Shown here piece by piece: positions 953 to 17,781 of a stretch of 23,581 nucleotides of DNA. The translations under genes were made by a program, and so were the position numbers. The DNA lies in IMG/VR virus record IMGVR_UViG_3300025674_000404, positions 1 through 23,581 of that record; one strand, 5' to 3'. Under the pieces are notes generated by a model. The model was given only the letters and a program-made list of their open reading frames with translations, ran no database searches and had not been told where the DNA came from. Source of the DNA: a virus. Positions within the stretch are counted from its first letter, which is position 1, and every line of letters begins with the position of its first letter.

Positions 953-1010
953 AGTTTTTTACTCCTCAGTAAAGTTTAGTTTATCCGGAGGTTTTGGAAT
1001 CGTTAAAAAA

Positions 1011-1481
1011 TTAACTTTTCTTCGAACCACCGAAGGTTACACGAGTCTGCCTGTCAACATTGATAGGCATACTTGGATGCTGTTCCTTCATAAGATCGTT
1101 ATCAACTGCTTTGTCTTGCTCTATGCCTTGTTCAGCATAATACTGAGCTCTAGACTTTGCGATCTCTTCCGGTACCCTTGTCAGCACAAGGCCCCCAACT
1201 CCGATCACTCCTGCGTACTTACCATCTTCGATAATTGGATAATCTGAATCCGGGTATTCATCAGCACGAACAAGTTCGTATCCTGATCTTATTCTTCCAG
1301 CGATATTTTTAGTATCCTGAAAGCCCATTGATTCTACTCTTACCCATCTATGACGAAAACCTGTTGGCGCAGGTGGTGCATCTAAAGATGACGGTGGAGT
1401 CCAAACTTTTTTTCGAGTTTCTTTTTCTCTAGTTTGGCTCGCACGAGAAGTTCTTTTGTCTTCTGTTTTTTCCATATGCAT
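1011..1481 (-). CDS. Conserved marine-phage protein of the head operon, unknown function
   Basis: The 156-aa protein begins with a charged, disordered-looking segment of about 35 residues, followed by a folded core with PPAPTGFRHRWVRVES, GRIRSGYELVRADEY and a Gly/Val-rich VIGVGGLVLTRVPEEIA stretch, and ends in a basic tail. It starts one base after the scaffold stop and is followed by a 58-nt gap before the 189-aa gene, so it belongs to the head operon. I recognise the sequence type from marine phages but not a function. A role in head assembly is inferred from context only. Confidence 0.6.
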   Translation of the reverse strand: MHMEKTEDKRTSRASQTREKETRKKVWTPPSSLDAPPAPTGFRHRWVRVESMGFQDTKNIAGRIRSGYELVRADEYPDSDYPIIEDGKYAGVIGVGGLVLTRVPEEIAKSRAQYYAEQGIEQDKAVDNDLMKEQHPSMPINVDRQTRVTFGGSKKS

Positions 1482-2447
1482 TTACTCCTTCGTGATTAAT
1501 TGTTTCGCATATTCTTCAAGCGGCACACCTAATTTTTTAGCAATTGCCATTTGAGACGGCGTGAGTCTCACAACTTTGCGGCCTGTTCTACTTGTTCTAG
1601 AAGCCGAAGCTACTGTCTGAGTAGGTTTTTCAGTCGTTGGAGTTTCTACCTTACCAAATTTATGCGGGAATTCAAGCTTTAATCTTTTATCAATCTCATT
1701 ATAATATTCATCAGATTGAGCATCATAGCCCTCTTCCTCTGTTAGTTTTTTATGTAAAGCAAAGGCTGTATAAGTCATTGCTTCATCCTTACCGAACCAT
1801 TCATTTTTAGAAGCCCACGCCTGAGCTTTTGGATCAGGATTAATAGGCGCTTCTTGTTTTGTTGGGTTCTTTTCTGGTTGATATGTTGCAGTAGGTTCTT
1901 CTTTTTCAGTTCCTCTAGCTTTCATATCAAGCAGTTTTGCTTCTTCATAACCGAGTCTTGATATCTCAGTTTGAGCTGTAACTTCATCTTGCAAATTACC
2001 ATCTTCTCTGGCTTTTTGTAATTTTGAAACTGCAGCTTCCATAGAAGCTTTTAGTCTATTTTCCATTTCAGACACATAACTTGTGTCTAATTTAGAAATT
2101 TTTCCCTCAAGAAGTTTTTGCTTTTCTAACACAGATTTTGCGTAAGCTGTTGCGGCTTCTTCTCTTCGTTCCGCCTCACGCATTTTTCTAGTTAGTTTTG
2201 CAATTCTTCTTTTAACTCCTTCTGAGTATTCTTCTAATTCTTTCTTTTTTTCTTTATCATCTGGTTCAGCTTGAACATCAAGCTGCTCATCAGATTTCTC
2301 AGCTGAGTCATTGGACTCAGTATTGTTGTCTTCAGTTTTTTCATGAGATACCTCTATTTCTGTTTCGGGTGTTTTTTCTTCTGGTATTTCTACCTCGGCA
2401 CCTGGACCAGATGTATCTATGTCAACTGTCTTTTCTTGTTCTTGCAT
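1482..2447 (-). CDS. Capsid scaffolding protein
   Basis: The 321-aa protein is strongly charged. Residues 1-75 are very acidic, about 75-180 form Lys/Glu-rich helical and coiled-coil sequence, and the C-terminus (about 295-321) is a short amphipathic helix with TPSQMAIAKKLGVPLEEYAK. This layout, together with the position just upstream of the capsid genes, fits internal scaffolding proteins, whose basic C-terminal helix docks onto the coat protein and which are lost before DNA packaging. The start at 2447 has an AGGAG site. No protease is visible nearby, so whether the scaffold is cleaved or ejected cannot be told. Confidence 0.85.
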   Translation of the reverse strand: MQEQEKTVDIDTSGPGAEVEIPEEKTPETEIEVSHEKTEDNNTESNDSAEKSDEQLDVQAEPDDKEKKKELEEYSEGVKRRIAKLTRKMREAERREEAATAYAKSVLEKQKLLEGKISKLDTSYVSEMENRLKASMEAAVSKLQKAREDGNLQDEVTAQTEISRLGYEEAKLLDMKARGTEKEEPTATYQPEKNPTKQEAPINPDPKAQAWASKNEWFGKDEAMTYTAFALHKKLTEEEGYDAQSDEYYNEIDKRLKLEFPHKFGKVETPTTEKPTQTVASASRTSRTGRKVVRLTPSQMAIAKKLGVPLEEYAKQLITKE

Positions 2448-7549: not shown

Positions 7550-7658
7550 TTAATTTTTTCTCCGATCTTACATTCTTAACAGTATTATAGTCAACATTCA
7601 AGCCTTTGGAACTTGGTCCTTGTTTCGGGGGCACTGTTGTTGTAAGCTTTTTCACCAT
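7515..7658 (-). CDS. 47-aa peptide between terminase and portal
   Basis: Starting MVKKLTTTVPPKQGPSSKGL and continuing NVDYNTVKNVRSEK, this short protein is basic and Pro/Thr-rich. I recognise the PPKQGP pattern from other marine phages at the same place between terminase and portal. The ATG shares one base with the terminase stop (TAATG) and the last 35 nt overlap the portal start. The conserved position suggests a packaging-motor accessory, which is inference. Confidence 0.65.
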   Translation of the reverse strand: MVKKLTTTVPPKQGPSSKGLNVDYNTVKNVRSEKKLNGSRQRTSKRS

Positions 7659-9142
7659 TACCAATAGTAACTTTTCTTCCTCTGAGTTTGAGGTTCATCT
7701 ATATAATCTTCTGGGTGATCAATCAAGCCTCCTTGCCTAAAGCGCATCAATGCTTGGGTGGTAGAGTCAACAAAGTCATCGTGATCTCCATATGGAAAAG
7801 ATGCACATTCTTCAACAACCTCTTGAGCAAAAGTCTTGGACAAAGGAGCCCAGACCATGCCTGATTCAAACATTGGAGATATTGCATTAACTCTTGTATG
7901 TTTATCGTTTCCTTTTGAAGGTGTGAAGTTAACCACTGGAATACCCATTTGCCTAAGTTCGTGGGTCAGGGGCAGTCCAGAAGCTTTCGCTTCAACAATG
8001 ACCGTTTCTGGTTTCCAATAGTTATATTGTTCAAGAGCCATTCTTCGGAGCTCAGGGAACTCGTACCTACCTTTAATGGCATCAACTAAAATTAAATGTG
8101 CTGGACTATCCGGATCAGGATAAAAAATCCCCCAAGTTGTAATTGCAGAATAGTCAGAAGATTCTTTTTTTGTAAAAGCCGTATCATAACTTTGAATAAC
8201 ATGTTGCAAAGGTGGAATATAATCTTCTTCCCAGTTCTTCCACCAATCTCTTTTTAAAAGAGCGCCTTCTTCTGCAGTTGGATTTTGCATGTACTGTGCA
8301 TTCCATTTTGCAATACCCGCAGAAGCTTTTACTGCTTCTAAATCTTCTAACTTCCAATATTCTGGCCATACAGGTTCTCCTGATGGCATGATAGCAGGAA
8401 ACTCTACAACTTCCCACTTATCTGCTTTTTCATCTTGTTGAGCTTTTAGTAACTGAGCGGTCAAGTCTTTTGTGGACCACCGGGTCATAACTAAAACAAT
8501 TCTTCCACCAGGTTGTAGACGCTGACGTGGACCTGACGTATACCATTCGTATGCTTTGTCAAAAGCTGTAGGAGAGTTTACATCTTGCTCGGAATGTGGA
8601 TCATCGATGATTAAAAGATCTGCACCTCTTCCGGTCACAGCTCCTTCCACACCCACAGCAAAATATTCACCGCCTTTATCGGTTTCCCATCGTCCTGCAG
8701 CTTTTGAGTCTTCTCTTAACCTTGTGGTAAAAACTTCTTGGTACTCGGCTGAGTCAATTAATGTTTTTGCTTTACGTCCAAATCTTACAGCAAGTTCTGC
8801 TGTGTGAGTCGCTTGAATGATTTTTAATTTGGGATCATTTCCAATCATCCAGGCTGGCAAAAAGTAAGATGCGAATTCTGATTTTGTATGCCTGGGTGGC
8901 ATATTAATAATTAATCTTTTTAATTCTCCTGTTTGTAATCTATTAAATTTATCTGAAATAATTTTATGATGGGAACCCTCAATAAAATCTGGCCAAATGT
9001 GTTTTACAAAAGTCAAAAAATCAGTTTGGATCTGAGACTCCTTTTGCTTTTTTATTTTTGTAAGAAAATCTAACTTGACCTGTTTTCTGACTTTAGGGTC
9101 TTTAATTCTATTAAGATTTTTTATTTTATTAATATCAAGCAT
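7658..9142 (-). CDS. terL: Terminase large subunit
   Basis: The 494-aa protein is the packaging motor ATPase and nuclease. Walker A-like sequence INMPPRHTKSE lies at about 79-89, Walker B LLIIDDPHS at 176-184, and a coupling motif VMTRW at 218-222. The RNase H-like nuclease domain follows from about 315, with acidic candidates D320 (SYDTAF), E384 (VIVEAKASG) and D455/D456 near the end. Length and motif order are typical. It uses ATP to pump DNA into the prohead through the portal and cuts the concatemer. The ATG at 9142 has no clear ribosome binding site, and a promoter with half-site repeats lies just upstream. The small subunit is 3.5 kb away on the other strand. Confidence 0.93.
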   Translation of the reverse strand: MLDINKIKNLNRIKDPKVRKQVKLDFLTKIKKQKESQIQTDFLTFVKHIWPDFIEGSHHKIISDKFNRLQTGELKRLIINMPPRHTKSEFASYFLPAWMIGNDPKLKIIQATHTAELAVRFGRKAKTLIDSAEYQEVFTTRLREDSKAAGRWETDKGGEYFAVGVEGAVTGRGADLLIIDDPHSEQDVNSPTAFDKAYEWYTSGPRQRLQPGGRIVLVMTRWSTKDLTAQLLKAQQDEKADKWEVVEFPAIMPSGEPVWPEYWKLEDLEAVKASAGIAKWNAQYMQNPTAEEGALLKRDWWKNWEEDYIPPLQHVIQSYDTAFTKKESSDYSAITTWGIFYPDPDSPAHLILVDAIKGRYEFPELRRMALEQYNYWKPETVIVEAKASGLPLTHELRQMGIPVVNFTPSKGNDKHTRVNAISPMFESGMVWAPLSKTFAQEVVEECASFPYGDHDDFVDSTTQALMRFRQGGLIDHPEDYIDEPQTQRKKSYYW

Positions 9143-9197: not shown

Positions 9198-9293
9198 GCA
9201 ATAAAGGGGTAGGTGTTAGGATCCCTTTTTGTAAATGGGTCATCGACATATATAAAAATTCAAAAAACCAAAACCACCTGGTACCTCTATTCA

Positions 9294-9320
9294 TGGGTGG
9301 GTCCCGCCCACATGCACTTA
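9294..9320. repeat. GC-rich hairpin repeat R1
   Basis: Contains the 19-bp sequence TGGGTGGGTCCCGCCCACA shared exactly with copies at 9954, 10587 and 11726; the match to the 9954 copy extends to 27 bp. The two halves TGGGTG and CGCCCA pair with one G-U wobble when read as plus-strand RNA. It lies in the 216-bp gap between the 65-aa gene and terL, next to an 11-bp hairpin. Confidence 0.85.
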
Positions 9321-9348
9321 ACAGGTGTTGCTTTTATGCAACACCTGT
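9321..9348. repeat. Perfect 11-bp inverted repeat (hairpin)
   Basis: ACAGGTGTTGC and its exact reverse complement GCAACACCTGT are separated by 6 nt (TTTTAT). The hairpin starts one base after repeat R1 and lies 10 nt past the stop of the minus-strand 65-aa gene. No U-run follows on either strand, so it is not a classical intrinsic terminator, but it could stabilise an mRNA 3' end or act as a weak terminator. Confidence 0.7.
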
Positions 9349-9930: not shown

Positions 9931-9952
9931 TTTTTTTTTTTTTTTTTTTTTT
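9931..9952. repeat. 22-nt T homopolymer
   Basis: An uninterrupted run of 22 T on the plus strand, directly before hairpin repeat R2 and upstream of the minus-strand promoter, where it reads as an A-tract. Runs of this length are unusual in phage DNA and may be variable or imprecisely sequenced. Confidence 0.9.
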
Positions 9953-9953
9953 C

Positions 9954-9980
9954 TGGGTGGGTCCCGCCCACATGCACTTA
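9954..9980. repeat. GC-rich hairpin repeat R2
   Basis: Second copy of TGGGTGGGTCCCGCCCACA, identical to R1 over 27 bp. It is followed on the plus strand by an AT-rich leader with TATAAAGTGAA and GTTGAC that is repeated after copy R3. It separates the minus-strand promoter from the plus-strand promoter of the noncoding structured region. Confidence 0.85.
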
Positions 9981-10019
9981 CCATGCAACTATAAAGTGAA
10001 AATTATTTTTAATTAATAG

Positions 10020-10555: not shown

Positions 10556-10586
10556 CGGCGAGCTCGCTCGAGTCCACAAGTTTTTT

Positions 10587-10613
10587 TGGGTGGGTCCCGC
10601 CCACAAGCACTCC
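10587..10613. repeat. GC-rich hairpin repeat R3
   Basis: Third exact copy of the 19-bp core, preceded by seven T. The leader after it again contains TATAAAGTGAA and GTTGAC, then TAGGATATTAA, matching the leader after R2 in order. It lies about 80 bp upstream of the GP88-like gene and probably carries its promoter (-35 TTGACT at 10646; the -10 box is unclear). Confidence 0.85.
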
Positions 10614-10694
10614 CCACGGTTCGCGTATAAAGTGAATTTATTTTGTTGACTTTGATTCTAGGATATTAAGACTTGATTTGAAAGTGAGGAAGTT

Positions 10695-11683: not shown

Positions 11684-11724
11684 GGTCACAAGCTCGCAAG
11701 CGCAAAGGTCACAAGCTCACAAGC
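11684..11724. repeat. Tandem direct repeat GGTCACAAGCTCRCAAGC
   Basis: Two 18-bp units at 11684-11701 and 11707-11724 differ at one base and are 5 nt apart. Each is built from CACAAGC/GCAAGC sub-units. Related CACAAGC or GCAAGC words occur at 10526, 10603, 11563-11587 and 11741, always close to R-type hairpin repeats. Confidence 0.8.
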
Positions 11725-11725
11725 T

Positions 11726-11744
11726 TGGGTGGGTCCCGCCCACA
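11726..11744. repeat. GC-rich hairpin repeat R4
   Basis: Fourth exact copy of the 19-bp core, here between the convergent ends of the plus-strand GP88 operon and the minus-strand nuclease gene. This position would suit a transcription barrier, but no U-run accompanies it. Confidence 0.85.
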
Positions 11745-11760
11745 AGCTCTTCTCTCCGCT

Positions 11761-12129
11761 TTATAAATTTTTAAATTTTGAAATGATCTTGGTCCAGGAT
11801 TCAGCAATCGGGGCCACAGGCTCATGGCCCTGCCAATGAAGAGTCTCGACCTGGATCCCTGCATAAAGTTTTGGGGCTCTCTGCCCAAGGACCTTGGCAA
11901 GTACAAAAGTATTATCCGTATGCCTCATATGGAAGCTAATTTGATGCGGTGAAAATCTTATTTTTTTACAAATAACTACTTTAAGTTCTATAGTGAAAAA
12001 TGTACCATTTTTATTGTATGCCAACACATCCGGTACCCCCGCGGAGGCCCAACTTTCAAGCCTTGTAAGTGAAAAATCTTTTAATTTTGACTTAACTTCC
12101 TTCCAAAAAAGAGACTCAGGTTTTGCCAT
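11761..12129 (-). CDS. VRR-NUC-like PD-(D/E)XK endonuclease
   Basis: The 122-aa protein has the compact nuclease pattern GVPDVLAY (D34), FTIELKV (E48, K50) and FSPHQISFHMRH with Q63, then a beta segment NTFVLAKV. This fits small restriction-like nucleases of the VRR-NUC or Holliday-junction-resolvase type, which may resolve branched replication or packaging intermediates. Start 12129 lacks a Shine-Dalgarno site; an 11-bp motif TTACGTTGAAT lies 2 nt upstream of the ATG and recurs twice at 13.7-13.9 kb. The C-terminal third (HWQGHEPVAPIAES) is not part of the catalytic core. Confidence 0.7.
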   Translation of the reverse strand: MAKPESLFWKEVKSKLKDFSLTRLESWASAGVPDVLAYNKNGTFFTIELKVVICKKIRFSPHQISFHMRHTDNTFVLAKVLGQRAPKLYAGIQVETLHWQGHEPVAPIAESWTKIISKFKNL

Positions 12130-13617: not shown

Positions 13618-13626
13618 ATATCCCTA

Positions 13627-13643
13627 TATAGAGTATTTCTAGG
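13627..13643. repeat. 17-bp inverted repeat, left copy
   Basis: TATAGAGTATTTCTAGG, the exact reverse complement of 13928-13944. On the minus strand it reads CCTAGAAATACTCTATA and continues TAGGGATAT into the start of the 94-aa gene, a promoter-like layout. Confidence 0.85.
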
Positions 13644-13747
13644 TTGAAGCACTTTTATTTTTTTTTAAAAAAATCAAAAAAAATCGCCCCCAGTCGTCCA
13701 TAAACAAATTTATTCAACGTAACCTTTTTATGCGGTATTTTAAGTGT

Positions 13748-13761: not shown

Positions 13762-13927
13762 TCAAAAAAGCTAATAAAATAGCGGTCTGTTTTTGCTTGT
13801 AGTACAAAGCAACTACAGAGAAAATAGGATAAGTTATTGTTTTCATTGTATTAATTCAACGTAACAAGGCTTTGTAGTCTAAAAACAACTTTTTTTGAAA
13901 ACTTTAAAAAAATAAAAAACATTTGAC

Positions 13928-13944
13928 CCTAGAAATACTCTATA
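13928..13944. repeat. 17-bp inverted repeat, right copy
   Basis: CCTAGAAATACTCTATA, matching 13627-13643 in inverted orientation. It follows TTTGAC and precedes CAGACATTA, and lies 7 nt from the stop of the 69-aa gene. Confidence 0.85.
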
Positions 13945-13950
13945 CAGACA

Positions 13951-14160
13951 TTATTTGCCATAATTCTGCTTTAATTTAGCTTCTATTCTGCCTTGTTTCT
14001 TGATTTCTGCTGCAATTTTTCTAACCATTTGATACCATTTGTTGCACCACATTATTTTAATCTCACCTTCAGTTGTATTATACATCCTATATATACTAGA
14101 TAAGTCTTTCATTTTGTGTTCTATATATGCATTATGTTTCACGTGAAACACTCCTTTCAT
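13951..14160 (-). CDS. Small basic protein whose start overlaps a parS site
   Basis: The longest frame is 69 aa starting MKGVFHVKHNAYIEHKMKD; the rest is basic and helical (MVRKIAAEIKKQGRIEAKLK). The FHVKH segment is the translation of the parS palindrome. The best ribosome binding site (AGGAG at 14151-14155) points to a GTG at 14142, which would sit at the centre of parS, giving a 63-aa product; the ATG at 14160 has no such site. The gene overlaps the end of the exonuclease gene by 29 nt. Function unknown. Confidence 0.5.
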   Translation of the reverse strand: MKGVFHVKHNAYIEHKMKDLSSIYRMYNTTEGEIKIMWCNKWYQMVRKIAAEIKKQGRIEAKLKQNYGK

Positions 14161-14833
14161 TGTAAAATTGATCCACTCTTTTTAACCATTCATACTGAAG
14201 CTTTCTAAATTCTTCACCTTCAAAGATAAAATATTGATACATTAAATCCTTCGTACAAATTAAATTTACACCCTGGGTAATTTTTGTTCCATAAACATAA
14301 TTATGGGCCATTGCATAAGCTGCGAGCTGTAGCCCATAATCGTGGATCCATTCTTTTCTTTTAGGTTTATTGGACTGCTTGAAATCAACAATGGATGGAC
14401 AGCCATTGTAAATTCCAACTACGTCCGTAGCACCCGCATATAGACCAGGATAATACAAAGTGACTTCGGAGCCATATATTTCACTCAACTTATCTCGCAG
14501 ACCTTGGTCGTATATTTGATAGGCCATCTTCTCCGCAAGCTGGCCTGTATCTGTTAAATCAATATGAGGTTTATTTTCTAACCATCCTTCTAAATATTTA
14601 TGCATTGTCGTTCCCCTGGAAGCTGCTTGGTCCTTTGTCCTTGTGGCTTCTTCCGCGCCAACGCGCGCCTTCCATCGTTCTAAAGCTTCTCTTTTTTCCT
14701 GGGGCTGGGTTGCCGCTAAGATGGTCGTGACACTCGGTAGCTTATCCTCGGTTCCAACATCATAATGCCTTTGACCCTGGATCAGGGACCTTGTTGAAGT
14801 GGGGTAAGTATAAAGTTTATTCCATTTAATCAT
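14132..14833 (-). CDS. RecB/Cas4-like PD-(D/E)XK exonuclease
   Basis: From the ATG at 14833 the protein has 233 aa (a TTG one codon earlier is possible). Nuclease motifs are in order: H78 (RGTTMHKYLEG), E123 (GSEVTLYY), D137 (AGATDVVG), D150-x-K152 (SIVDFKQS) and Q169 (YGLQLAAYA). This is the layout of RecB-family phage exonucleases that degrade DNA for nucleotide supply or recombine ends during replication. It overlaps the 164-aa gene by a few nt. Its last codons (SVSRET and stop) are an out-of-frame reading of the parS palindrome. Length is typical for the phage form. Confidence 0.82.
   Translation of the reverse strand: MIKWNKLYTYPTSTRSLIQGQRHYDVGTEDKLPSVTTILAATQPQEKREALERWKARVGAEEATRTKDQAASRGTTMHKYLEGWLENKPHIDLTDTGQLAEKMAYQIYDQGLRDKLSEIYGSEVTLYYPGLYAGATDVVGIYNGCPSIVDFKQSNKPKRKEWIHDYGLQLAAYAMAHNYVYGTKITQGVNLICTKDLMYQYFIFEGEEFRKLQYEWLKRVDQFYNERSVSRET
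14135..14150. promoter_or_regulatory. Exact 16-bp parS site (ParB binding)
   Basis: TGTTTCACGTGAAACA is a perfect palindrome identical to the chromosomal parS consensus of many bacteria including alphaproteobacteria, where ParB loads onto DNA for chromosome segregation. It lies in the overlap of two genes, coding in both frames. A random 16-bp match in a window this size is very unlikely. Whether host ParB uses it is not shown. Confidence 0.85.
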
Positions 14834-15320
14834 CAATACACGTCTTTCCTCGTTTAATTAAATTAATATACCAATCAAACTCACCTTTAAATCTTGGAAT
14901 ATTAGATTGTTTATAAGTCCCTGGTGCGTGGTCCATATAGATTAAAAACCCGTACGTTCTTAAAACTTTCTGGCGATAAGATAAATATTCATTCACAATA
15001 TTTTTAGCCTCTCTCCAATATTTAAAAGCTTTAATCGGATGTAAAAAATGATTAATCCATCTAAATAAAGTAATGTATTTATTTTTACGTTCCATTTTTC
15101 GATCCTTAATTAAATCTTTAATAATGTAAGTTGTATCTTTTAGATCTTGAACCATCTCTGGAAACATAACTCTAGATTTTCTATAAAGACCAATTTCCAT
15201 TTTACGAGTTTCAAGTTCTACTCTTTTTAACATCGCTCTAAATTCAGGATCATTGCCTCTTGTTTCTTTAAACTTCTCAATTAACTCGGTCCCAAGTGTT
15301 CTAGCTCTTTGTGTATACAT
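14826..15320 (-). CDS. 164-aa protein of unknown function
   Basis: The protein is mostly helical and charged: TELIEKFKETRGNDPEFRAM, then RVELETRKMEIGLYRKSRVMF, a basic middle and an aromatic end (YGFLIYMDHAPGTYKQSN, FDWYINLIKRGK). No signal peptide or membrane span. It is between the Mrr-domain protein (4 nt away) and the exonuclease (short overlap), suggesting it works with nucleases on DNA. I do not recognise a family. Confidence 0.6.
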   Translation of the reverse strand: MYTQRARTLGTELIEKFKETRGNDPEFRAMLKRVELETRKMEIGLYRKSRVMFPEMVQDLKDTTYIIKDLIKDRKMERKNKYITLFRWINHFLHPIKAFKYWREAKNIVNEYLSYRQKVLRTYGFLIYMDHAPGTYKQSNIPRFKGEFDWYINLIKRGKTCIDD

Positions 15321-15324
15321 ATTT

Positions 15325-17781
15325 TTACCTTTCGTTTAAAAGTTGATCTCCATCAATAAGTTCAACTCCATGTTTGTTTGCAATTTCAATTGCACCTGGA
15401 GTAAAGCGTGAGCTGGTAATCACCATCATCACTTTTTCATAACCATCATCTTCAACTTCTTTAGCACCAATCAATTCTCGAATCACATCAGGTCCTATCG
15501 CTTTCTTCCAATGTTTACACTGTACAATAAGTTTTTTAATGACACCATCTTTAAATTCTTTAAACCCACGAATATCAATACCGCCATCATAATTATCTCT
15601 AGCAACAATTTCCCAACCTCTTTTTTCCATAAACTTTGACATCTGTTCTTCAAAGCCAGCTGGAGATAAGTCATTGATTTCAATAGCTTTTTCTTGTTCT
15701 TCAGGGTTGACATATAACATTCCGTGTAAACTTTTCGTACGATAAATATATTTTTTCTTGGTCATACCGGTGCCCCACAAAGATTCTTTAACAAAGGTAT
15801 GGCCTGGTGGAACAGGAACATTATTTCGCTCAGCAAGTAACAATTGAAACTTAGAAGGCTTGGCACCTACAGGGAGTTTCCTGGTATGGGCTCTTCGCTC
15901 ACCACTTAAAATTTTATTTTCATTATAGTAATGTCTAACTTTTTTGGGGTCTCGTTTATATCTTACACGAGGTAGATAGATATAACGCTTTACTTCAGAG
16001 TTGACACCTTTAGGAACTCTTTTGCCTCGGTACGTCATGCTGGAGTCTCGTTCAATTAAAACTTTCCAATCCCTGATCGCACTAATGACTTTAGGATAAA
16101 GATCATTTTTAAAACTACGAAGTTGTTCTTCTGATAATTTTTGAGTGTTAAGAATCCAATAACAAAATTGTTTTTTTGCTTTGTTGTAAACATCAACCAA
16201 CACTTCTTCATTATAGTCTGTTACAAAAAACATAATAAGTCTTTCGTTCTCAATAAATCTTACGTATTTAAATTGAGGATCATCTTTAATTTCATAAGCT
16301 GCATTATATGGAATATATTCTCCCGTGCCGGTATTATGAATTTCTTCAATGACTTTATTAACAAACTCTAAAGGTTCACCTTCTAAAGTTTCGAATTTTT
16401 CTCTGGCATGTTTTAGTGTGGTATAGTGTATATCATCACCAAACTCATGATAATCCTTTATAAAATCTAAAGTATTCATGTATTTAAAACTATTAATTTG
16501 TTCCATCCAACCTGAAACCAATAAAGTATGGTTCATTGATGGCCAATATAAAGAAGCTGCTCCTTCTGACATTCGATGATAGTCAATAGGTCCGACAAAA
16601 GGAAGATGCGTTCCTTTTTTAGTCAGGGATAGTAAGGACCATAAATAATAAAAAGAAATCACAACTTTATTTTCATGCAAATAATCATTTGAAGTAACTC
16701 CTTTAGTTGAAGCATTCATTAAACTTTGTCTAACACTTGAAAATTCTTTTGGTTCTAAAGTTTTATTAAACACAGACTGAACGATCATTATACAAATGTC
16801 TTTAACAGTTTTGGCTTTGTCAACCTCTTTGAATATCTCATACGCAACAACATTATCTTTTTTCATTATGTTTAAAAGTTTGTCTTTATTTTCACTCTTT
16901 TGAAAAGAGATAACATATCCCGCTAAAGTCATAAGGTTTTGCATGACGAGTTGATTATAACCCATAAGTAAAAGTTCTTTTTTAGTAGGAAGAACAGATC
17001 GACCGGTTACAGACCTTAATCTTAAGCTATCGACATTATAAGATTTAACATAATCTTGAGCATTATACATTGCTCTAGACATGCCTAAAGTTTCTAAATA
17101 AATATCTTCCACATATTCCTCTGGCATTTCTTTTGCATAACAGAAACTAACTTGTTTAACGATTTGATCAAAATAAGTTTTGTACTCAGCGTGAATATAT
17201 TCTAATAAATCTATGGTGTGTTTATTATTTTTAATTTCAATACATAATGCTTTTGTTTTAGAAAATTCAGGACACACAATGTAAAGTTTTAAATTTTTTC
17301 TCATGCTATATAATTTTTCTACTTCATCAGCAGAAAAAAAAATAGATTTTCCATTAATCGTCATAAGTTCAAAAGAAGAGCTAGAATCACTGTCAGTACC
17401 ATTTAAAAAATCTCCACTCCTTCTAGGAAGTGCGACATCAAACGACATTTTTGGTTTATGGTGACTTGTTGTAATGATTCCATCATCAAAAAATCTGATA
17501 TGTTCACCATATTTATTTTTAAAATTAAGATCCGAATAATTGTATTGTATATCAACAACAGTAGGCTTAATAATTTGTGGTAAGTCGGGAGAATCTAAAT
17601 TTTGACTTAAAAAATTTTTTAAAGCCTCTAATTCATTATTAACATACTTTTCTTTAAAGTTAGGAATGTAAGAATAAAAAAAGTGTGTATCGGTTTTTAA
17701 TTCTGTTTCAATTTCAATAATAGGATTGTTTATATTTTGATTAAATAAATTACTATCTAAATTAAAATTATTCGTAATCAT
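15325..17781 (-). CDS. Large protein with C-terminal Mrr-type nuclease domain
   Basis: The 818-aa protein ends in a clear Mrr_cat restriction-endonuclease-like domain, about 705-818: LSPAGFEEQMSKFMEKRGWE, DGGIDI with D736, IVQCKHW with Q754 and K756, IGPDVIRELIGAK and ITSSRFTPGAIEIANKHGVEL. The first 700 residues are unlike any domain I recognise; they include a Ser-rich DSDSSSSFEL patch at about 130 and helical stretches. Mrr domains in this form cut DNA, often modified DNA. In a phage it could degrade host DNA or exclude other phages. It overlaps a 54-aa gene by 14 nt and lies in the operon with the exonuclease. Much larger than ordinary Mrr proteins (about 300 aa). Confidence 0.75.
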   Translation of the reverse strand: MITNNFNLDSNLFNQNINNPIIEIETELKTDTHFFYSYIPNFKEKYVNNELEALKNFLSQNLDSPDLPQIIKPTVVDIQYNYSDLNFKNKYGEHIRFFDDGIITTSHHKPKMSFDVALPRRSGDFLNGTDSDSSSSFELMTINGKSIFFSADEVEKLYSMRKNLKLYIVCPEFSKTKALCIEIKNNKHTIDLLEYIHAEYKTYFDQIVKQVSFCYAKEMPEEYVEDIYLETLGMSRAMYNAQDYVKSYNVDSLRLRSVTGRSVLPTKKELLLMGYNQLVMQNLMTLAGYVISFQKSENKDKLLNIMKKDNVVAYEIFKEVDKAKTVKDICIMIVQSVFNKTLEPKEFSSVRQSLMNASTKGVTSNDYLHENKVVISFYYLWSLLSLTKKGTHLPFVGPIDYHRMSEGAASLYWPSMNHTLLVSGWMEQINSFKYMNTLDFIKDYHEFGDDIHYTTLKHAREKFETLEGEPLEFVNKVIEEIHNTGTGEYIPYNAAYEIKDDPQFKYVRFIENERLIMFFVTDYNEEVLVDVYNKAKKQFCYWILNTQKLSEEQLRSFKNDLYPKVISAIRDWKVLIERDSSMTYRGKRVPKGVNSEVKRYIYLPRVRYKRDPKKVRHYYNENKILSGERRAHTRKLPVGAKPSKFQLLLAERNNVPVPPGHTFVKESLWGTGMTKKKYIYRTKSLHGMLYVNPEEQEKAIEINDLSPAGFEEQMSKFMEKRGWEIVARDNYDGGIDIRGFKEFKDGVIKKLIVQCKHWKKAIGPDVIRELIGAKEVEDDGYEKVMMVITSSRFTPGAIEIANKHGVELIDGDQLLNER

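Follow-up and report, generated by a model that had tools for sequence, protein, structure and literature searches.

The closest described counterparts of the site examined here are the parS sites of chromosomal ParABS systems, whose classical place is rsmG near parA. Phage genomes with a centromere-like ParB site are also familiar from phage-plasmids such as P1, N15 and similar elements, which are maintained as prophages and encode a ParA and a ParB of their own, acting on sites specific to each element. The published consensus of chromosomal parS is TGTTNCACGTGAAACA, in which position 5 is given as N (PMC7022226). Two engineered situations are also relevant: in lambda-parS, a parS tag used for imaging phage DNA draws ParB into foci as infection proceeds (PMC13190303), and supernumerary parS copies in Caulobacter can affect the cell (PMC5815017). 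For natural orphan parS sites in virulent phages, we found no paper in the open-access literature.

The locus described here shares features with each of these systems. It consists of the same 14-16 bp palindrome as chromosomal parS, for example that of the SAR11 rsmG-parA region, with T or C tolerated at position 5. Unlike chromosomal parS, however, the phage site is found on a virulent phage, outside rsmG and away from any parA or parB, and its position shifts between relatives. As in P1 and N15, a phage genome carries a centromere-like ParB site, but the phages considered here are without detected ParA, ParB or integrase, and the site is that of the host. Whereas the lambda tag is engineered and its ParB is supplied by the experimenter, the present site is natural and matched to the ParB of the host. 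The extra Caulobacter copies, in turn, were inserted by experimenters into a chromosome and are not viral.

The parS match, its coding context and the phage that carries it

The window, by which we mean the whole stretch of DNA analyzed, is a 23.6-kb virus fragment (IMGVR_UViG_3300025674_000404, 23,581 nt). The features of concern here are as follows.

7658..9142, minus strand: terminase large subunit (TerL; PHROG 38); a related clade has parS 35-166 bp upstream of terL
11761..12129, minus strand: VRR-NUC-like protein of 122 aa; this window homologue has an FHMRH motif and no site
13951..14160, minus strand: 69-aa gene (ORF with homologues) overlapping the exonuclease gene, its start region spanned by parS
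14132..14836, minus strand: exonuclease of PD-(D/E)XK type (PHROG 298, E 6e-53), with homologues in HTVC027P and others
14135..14150, no strand: putative orphan parS, TGTTTCACGTGAAACA, exact 16/16 match
14142-14140, minus strand: GTG in the centre of parS, candidate start codon of the 69-aa gene from its frame and Shine-Dalgarno spacing
14156-14151, minus strand: AAGGAG, a Shine-Dalgarno-like sequence 8 nt ahead of the GTG in the parS centre

The initial annotation had described an exact parS in the overlap of the exonuclease and 69-aa genes, and this was confirmed: TGTTTCACGTGAAACA at 14135-14150 has 0 mismatches to the chromosomal ParB loading site and fits the 16-bp consensus. No second match is present in the window, even with up to 3 mismatches allowed. 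The site is indeed a perfect palindrome, one of two of 16 bp in the window, the other being the low-complexity TTAAAAAATTTTTTAA. A chance match had been called extremely unlikely, and the numbers agree. At the composition of the window, 5e-6 to 9e-6 exact parS 16-mers are expected in 23.6 kb (Markov orders 0-2), and at least 120 IMG/VR contigs contain the 16-mer, compared with 1 and 5 contigs for two control palindromes matched in composition. These control counts suggest that a few per cent only of the exact parS 16-mers in the IMG/VR collection are due to chance.

The palindrome is coding in two frames, as had also been noted. In the exonuclease frame it forms the C-terminus VSRET* (final codons GTT TCA CGT GAA ACA TAA), and the 69-aa frame across it reads V-F-H-V-K-H. 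The suggestion that the second gene starts at the central GTG is plausible, since this codon is in frame and preceded by AAGGAG at 8 nt; other possible starts are the ATG at 14160 and one later ATG. The 69-aa gene itself is probably real, as homologues follow the exonuclease in four contigs (L129, L130, L131 and L139), where their N-termini are unrelated and lack parS. A search of viral contigs for 69-aa homologues confirmed no relative. The intergenic region adjoining this gene is flanked by 45-nt inverted repeat arms (13624-13668 and 13903-13947) that are 78% complementary.

The window belongs to the HTVC023P/HTVC027P-like (pelagiphage-type) podoviruses. It has the module of that type, with homologous terminase, portal, exonuclease, GroES-like and capsid genes; its TerL is 69% identical to that of HTVC027P, 71% to that of 023Pt_psg01 and 58% to that of HTVC023P, and its exonuclease is 48-52% identical to those of the same three phages (50% for HTVC027P). 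From this kinship we infer that the host is SAR11, the HTVC027P and HTVC023P records giving Pelagibacter HTCC1062 as host. HTVC027P is described as obligately lytic (PMC12753301). The window also encodes an 818-aa protein (15325-17781, minus strand) whose C-terminal part is an Mrr-type restriction endonuclease domain (PF04471, E 1e-21); the long N-terminal part fused to it has no assigned function. Four copies of a 36-nt interspersed repeat, with the core TGGGTGGGTCCCGCCCACA, are present (9288-9323, 9948-9983, 10581-10616 and 11720-11755), and akin to it are GGGTCCC/GGGGCCCC elements near parS or terL starts in relatives (L023, L088 and L443-L522).

Carriage and position of the site among relatives

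Conservation at the exact position of the window site was rejected: among 80 exonuclease relatives, including those with the 69-aa gene, none has parS at the end of the exonuclease gene. The dual-coding overlap is therefore incidental. What appears to be conserved is instead an intact site that recurs at shifting, mostly intergenic positions. In a set of 47 exonuclease relatives and 3 reference phages, the exact 14-bp core was found in 7/50 records and a control in 0/50. Two of the seven (G002, whose exonuclease is 72% identical to that of the window, and G041) have the exact site in apparently intergenic DNA. Exact, apparently intergenic sites also occur at various places in L014 (TerL 78%), L103, L021, L105, L110 and others. 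No parS was found in the 80 closest TerL relatives (680 kb, many not reaching the exonuclease region), or in HTVC023P, 023Pt_psg01, DSL-LC04 and several other pelagiphages. Given these scattered intergenic sites and the close TerL relatives that lack one, parS carriage among the relatives of the window is patchy and its position fluid.

The remaining five of the seven records (HTVC027P, L149, L156, L158 and G010, the last placed in this group by its matching flanks) have the core inside an unannotated VRR-NUC-like gene, where it lies in an FHVKH motif. In HTVC027P (L122) this gene encodes 123 aa at 16216-16587 on the plus strand; the annotated gp32 is partly on the opposite strand. Among 66 unique VRR-NUC-like homologues, 26 encode FHVKH, of which 10 keep the core and 16 break it synonymously; codon use alone predicts 7.2 cores (shuffle P 0.047). 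These codons indicate that coding alone is able to yield the 14-bp parS core. The HTVC027P-type sites were first counted as support and were discounted after this codon test; the five matches are not counted because a conserved FHxxH protein motif accounts for them. Free synonymous change of the palindrome in relatives, which the initial annotation regarded as evidence against a function, is thus what was found at the HTVC027P-type site, whereas the window copy is spanned by no close relative in which such change could be followed. Selection for an intact site is clear in the sites upstream of terL and in Ruegeria phages, both described below.

A sample chosen by terminase alone gave a more regular picture. 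Relatives of the TerL of contig L083 were gathered by protein only, which yielded 73 loci with at least 120 bp upstream. An intact parS is present upstream of terL in 41 of these, 39 exact and 2 with the one-letter variant TGTTCCACGTGAAACA, all at 35-166 bp from the gene. In the other 32 loci the best parS match has at least 5 mismatches, and none of 59 control palindromes comes within 2 mismatches on the same sample. The 41 sites have common ancestry, which was counted against an orphan parS, and represent 16 distinct flank contexts; one lineage has tandem doublets of TGTTCCACGTGGAACA and TGTTTCACGTGAAACA about 24 bp apart. On the TerL tree, parS presence requires 7 gains or losses, 3 of them forced by well-supported branches, and whole TerL clades of 12 retain parS. 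Near-complete genomes (G143, G144, G145 and G101) have one parS each. The flank contexts, the doublets and variation chiefly at position 5 speak for genuine ParB sites. The possibility that the terL regions without parS hold a decayed copy was rejected, as the best matches there belong to a different conserved promoter-like element. In L443-L522, a conserved promoter-like block, GGGCCATGTTTYTCRCAAAYAAT ... AGGGGCCCC-ATG, lies upstream of terL with or without parS.

Of the 120 parS contigs listed from IMG/VR, at least 44 have genes homologous to those for TerL, portal or capsid in the window. In these 44, 23 sites are intergenic compared with 4.2 expected by position, a figure uncorrected for relatedness. 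Among the 44 is also a more distant group (TerL about 28%) in which as many as five sites occur near terL. In contigs L017, L044, L053 and L075, whose terminases show about 28% identity, two to five copies of parS fall inside roughly 1.3 kb close to terL; comparison of the multi-site region of L044 with phage records by blastn gave spurious matches only. A scan for CACGTG-centred alleles revealed 18 half-site changes, of which 9 replace T by C at position 5, 5 affect the outermost position 1, and the other 4 are confined to two divergent matches. Variation in relatives is therefore restricted mainly to the positions tolerated in parS, as in sites of the chromosomal type.

Cultured phages, partition genes and host sites

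Exact parS sites also occur in cultured Ruegeria phages (L609, L611 and L619-L624; KT870145, MH015255, MN602268), three each in DSS3P8 and V10 and two in DSS3_MAL1. All three sites of DSS3P8 are intergenic, within a block of small genes. In two aligned groups of Ruegeria phages, parS is invariant at 16/16 positions, while the other columns are invariant at 142/312 and 185/314. Phaeobacter phage MD18 lacks parS, and ParB went undetected in MD18, DSS3P8, V10 and MAL1 alike. In CRP-810, GTTCCACGTGGAAC lies within a long gene. Complete phage records lacking parS include four pelagiphages of other groups, HMO-2011, SPO1, phiKZ, phiCbK, ICP1 and others.

We also looked for partition genes that might accompany the sites. 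The ParB domain PF02195 was above cut-off in 0/50 parS-bearing phage records, and none was found in complete HTVC027P, DSS3P8 or V10; the window fragment was also negative. Integrase (PF00589) and ParA (PF13614) were not found in 20 records. With ParB, ParA and integrase all undetected, a phage-plasmid with its own ParABS was rejected for the phages examined, and the sites are best regarded as orphan parS sites for a host ParB. One contig, L442 (G030), encodes a ParB_N-like protein (958-1764, minus strand) immediately upstream of its exonuclease gene, with a score of 16.4 bits, below cut-off; this ParB_N-only ORF is unsupported as a parS binder. ParB_N at E 0.001 was absent from 46/50 other parS contigs, some of which are fragments.

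On the side of the host, 18/20 SAR11 genomes have the core with one mismatch or none, in almost every case as a single copy, and in the two genomes inspected the site sits in rsmG, between mnmG and parA. Capture of host rsmG together with parS was rejected, as the phage flanks are without rsmG sequence.

Proposed role of the site and alternative explanations

We consider it likely, with a probability of about 0.7, that the window palindrome is an orphan parS that would load the chromosomal ParB of the host. For the sites upstream of terL and those of the Ruegeria phages, our confidence exceeds that for the window copy. The initial annotation had proposed recruitment of host ParB, and this survives as the best reading, given that relatives and unrelated cultured phages carry parS without ParB; the expectation of a conserved position did not hold. 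It also seems somewhat probable that several lineages of virulent marine phages independently gained the host parS and use the host segregation machinery while owning no partition gene. After entry of the phage, host ParB-CTP would bind the site and close as a clamp, and the clamp would slide onto the flanking kilobases to form a partition complex on the phage genome. Such a complex could link the phage genome with ParA and SMC of the host, so that the genome would be positioned, compacted or shielded. Binding, spreading and a benefit to the phage are all predicted. Because its position shifts between relatives, the site is probably a position-independent DNA element, and neither a codon feature nor a fixed operator. 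As to its purpose, we favor positioning or compaction, to which we give about half of the probability, followed by a decoy and by late-gene regulation. Positioning or compaction through ParB, ParA and SMC would best fit a single, position-independent site. The likelihoods stated below for the decoy and for regulation concern purposes of an orphan parS, and thus overlap with the probability given above.

The phage copies might serve as a decoy that titrates host ParB and disturbs segregation or the cell cycle to the benefit of the phage. A SAR11 cell would have one chromosomal parS, soon outnumbered by replicating phage genomes; SAR11 genomes are in fact nearly always single-site, and extra parS copies lower Caulobacter fitness in a position-dependent manner (PMC5815017). 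However, most of the phages have one site and no array, and failed segregation of a dying host would seem of little use to a phage, so we regard a decoy as rather unlikely. Slightly less credit is due to regulation, in which ParB at parS would block or delay a nearby promoter, for instance late transcription into terL, as a timing repressor. ParB does repress parS-adjacent promoters in Pseudomonas aeruginosa (PMC5521831), and both the 41 loci with a site in a promoter-like region just upstream of terL and the intergenic DSS3P8 sites in their small-gene block would suit such a role. Relatives nevertheless differ in whether the site (-35 to -166) precedes or follows the promoter-like elements, about half of the sampled relatives are without it, and the window copy is inside genes, away from a promoter.

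Two further explanations dispense with ParB at the window site or altogether. VSRET and VFHVKH may merely happen to be spelled as a palindrome, functionless here even though parS elsewhere in the clade is real. That the position is unique to the window contig would agree with this coincidence, as would the freedom of the HTVC027P-type core at synonymous sites, where 16 of the 26 FHVKH homologues break it. We nonetheless judge it improbable, considering the expectation of 5e-6 to 9e-6 and the few per cent of chance 16-mers suggested by the control palindromes. Moreover, the two peptides are unconserved in relatives, which leaves no protein motif to force the palindrome, and FHVKH-type coding matches give CGTTTC..., short of the full 16-mer. 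Least credible by far is that the palindrome serves as operator for a different regulator, of phage or host origin, with a matching sequence preference: many sites do lie in promoter-like regions, but the alleles are nearly all known parS alleles (TGTTTCACGTGAAACA, TGTTCCACGTGAAACA and TGTTCCACGTGGAACA).

If the orphan parS reading is correct, chromosome segregation proteins would commonly serve abundant phages of the ocean as host factors; we did not find this link in the open-access literature. Ruegeria pomeroyi DSS-3 with DSS3P8, V10 or MAL1 offers a culturable test system. Recruitment of host ParB would account for the perfect parS copies in viromes, and parS counts in metagenomes should not be taken as all chromosomal. 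It would also mean a new role for ParB-CTP clamps.
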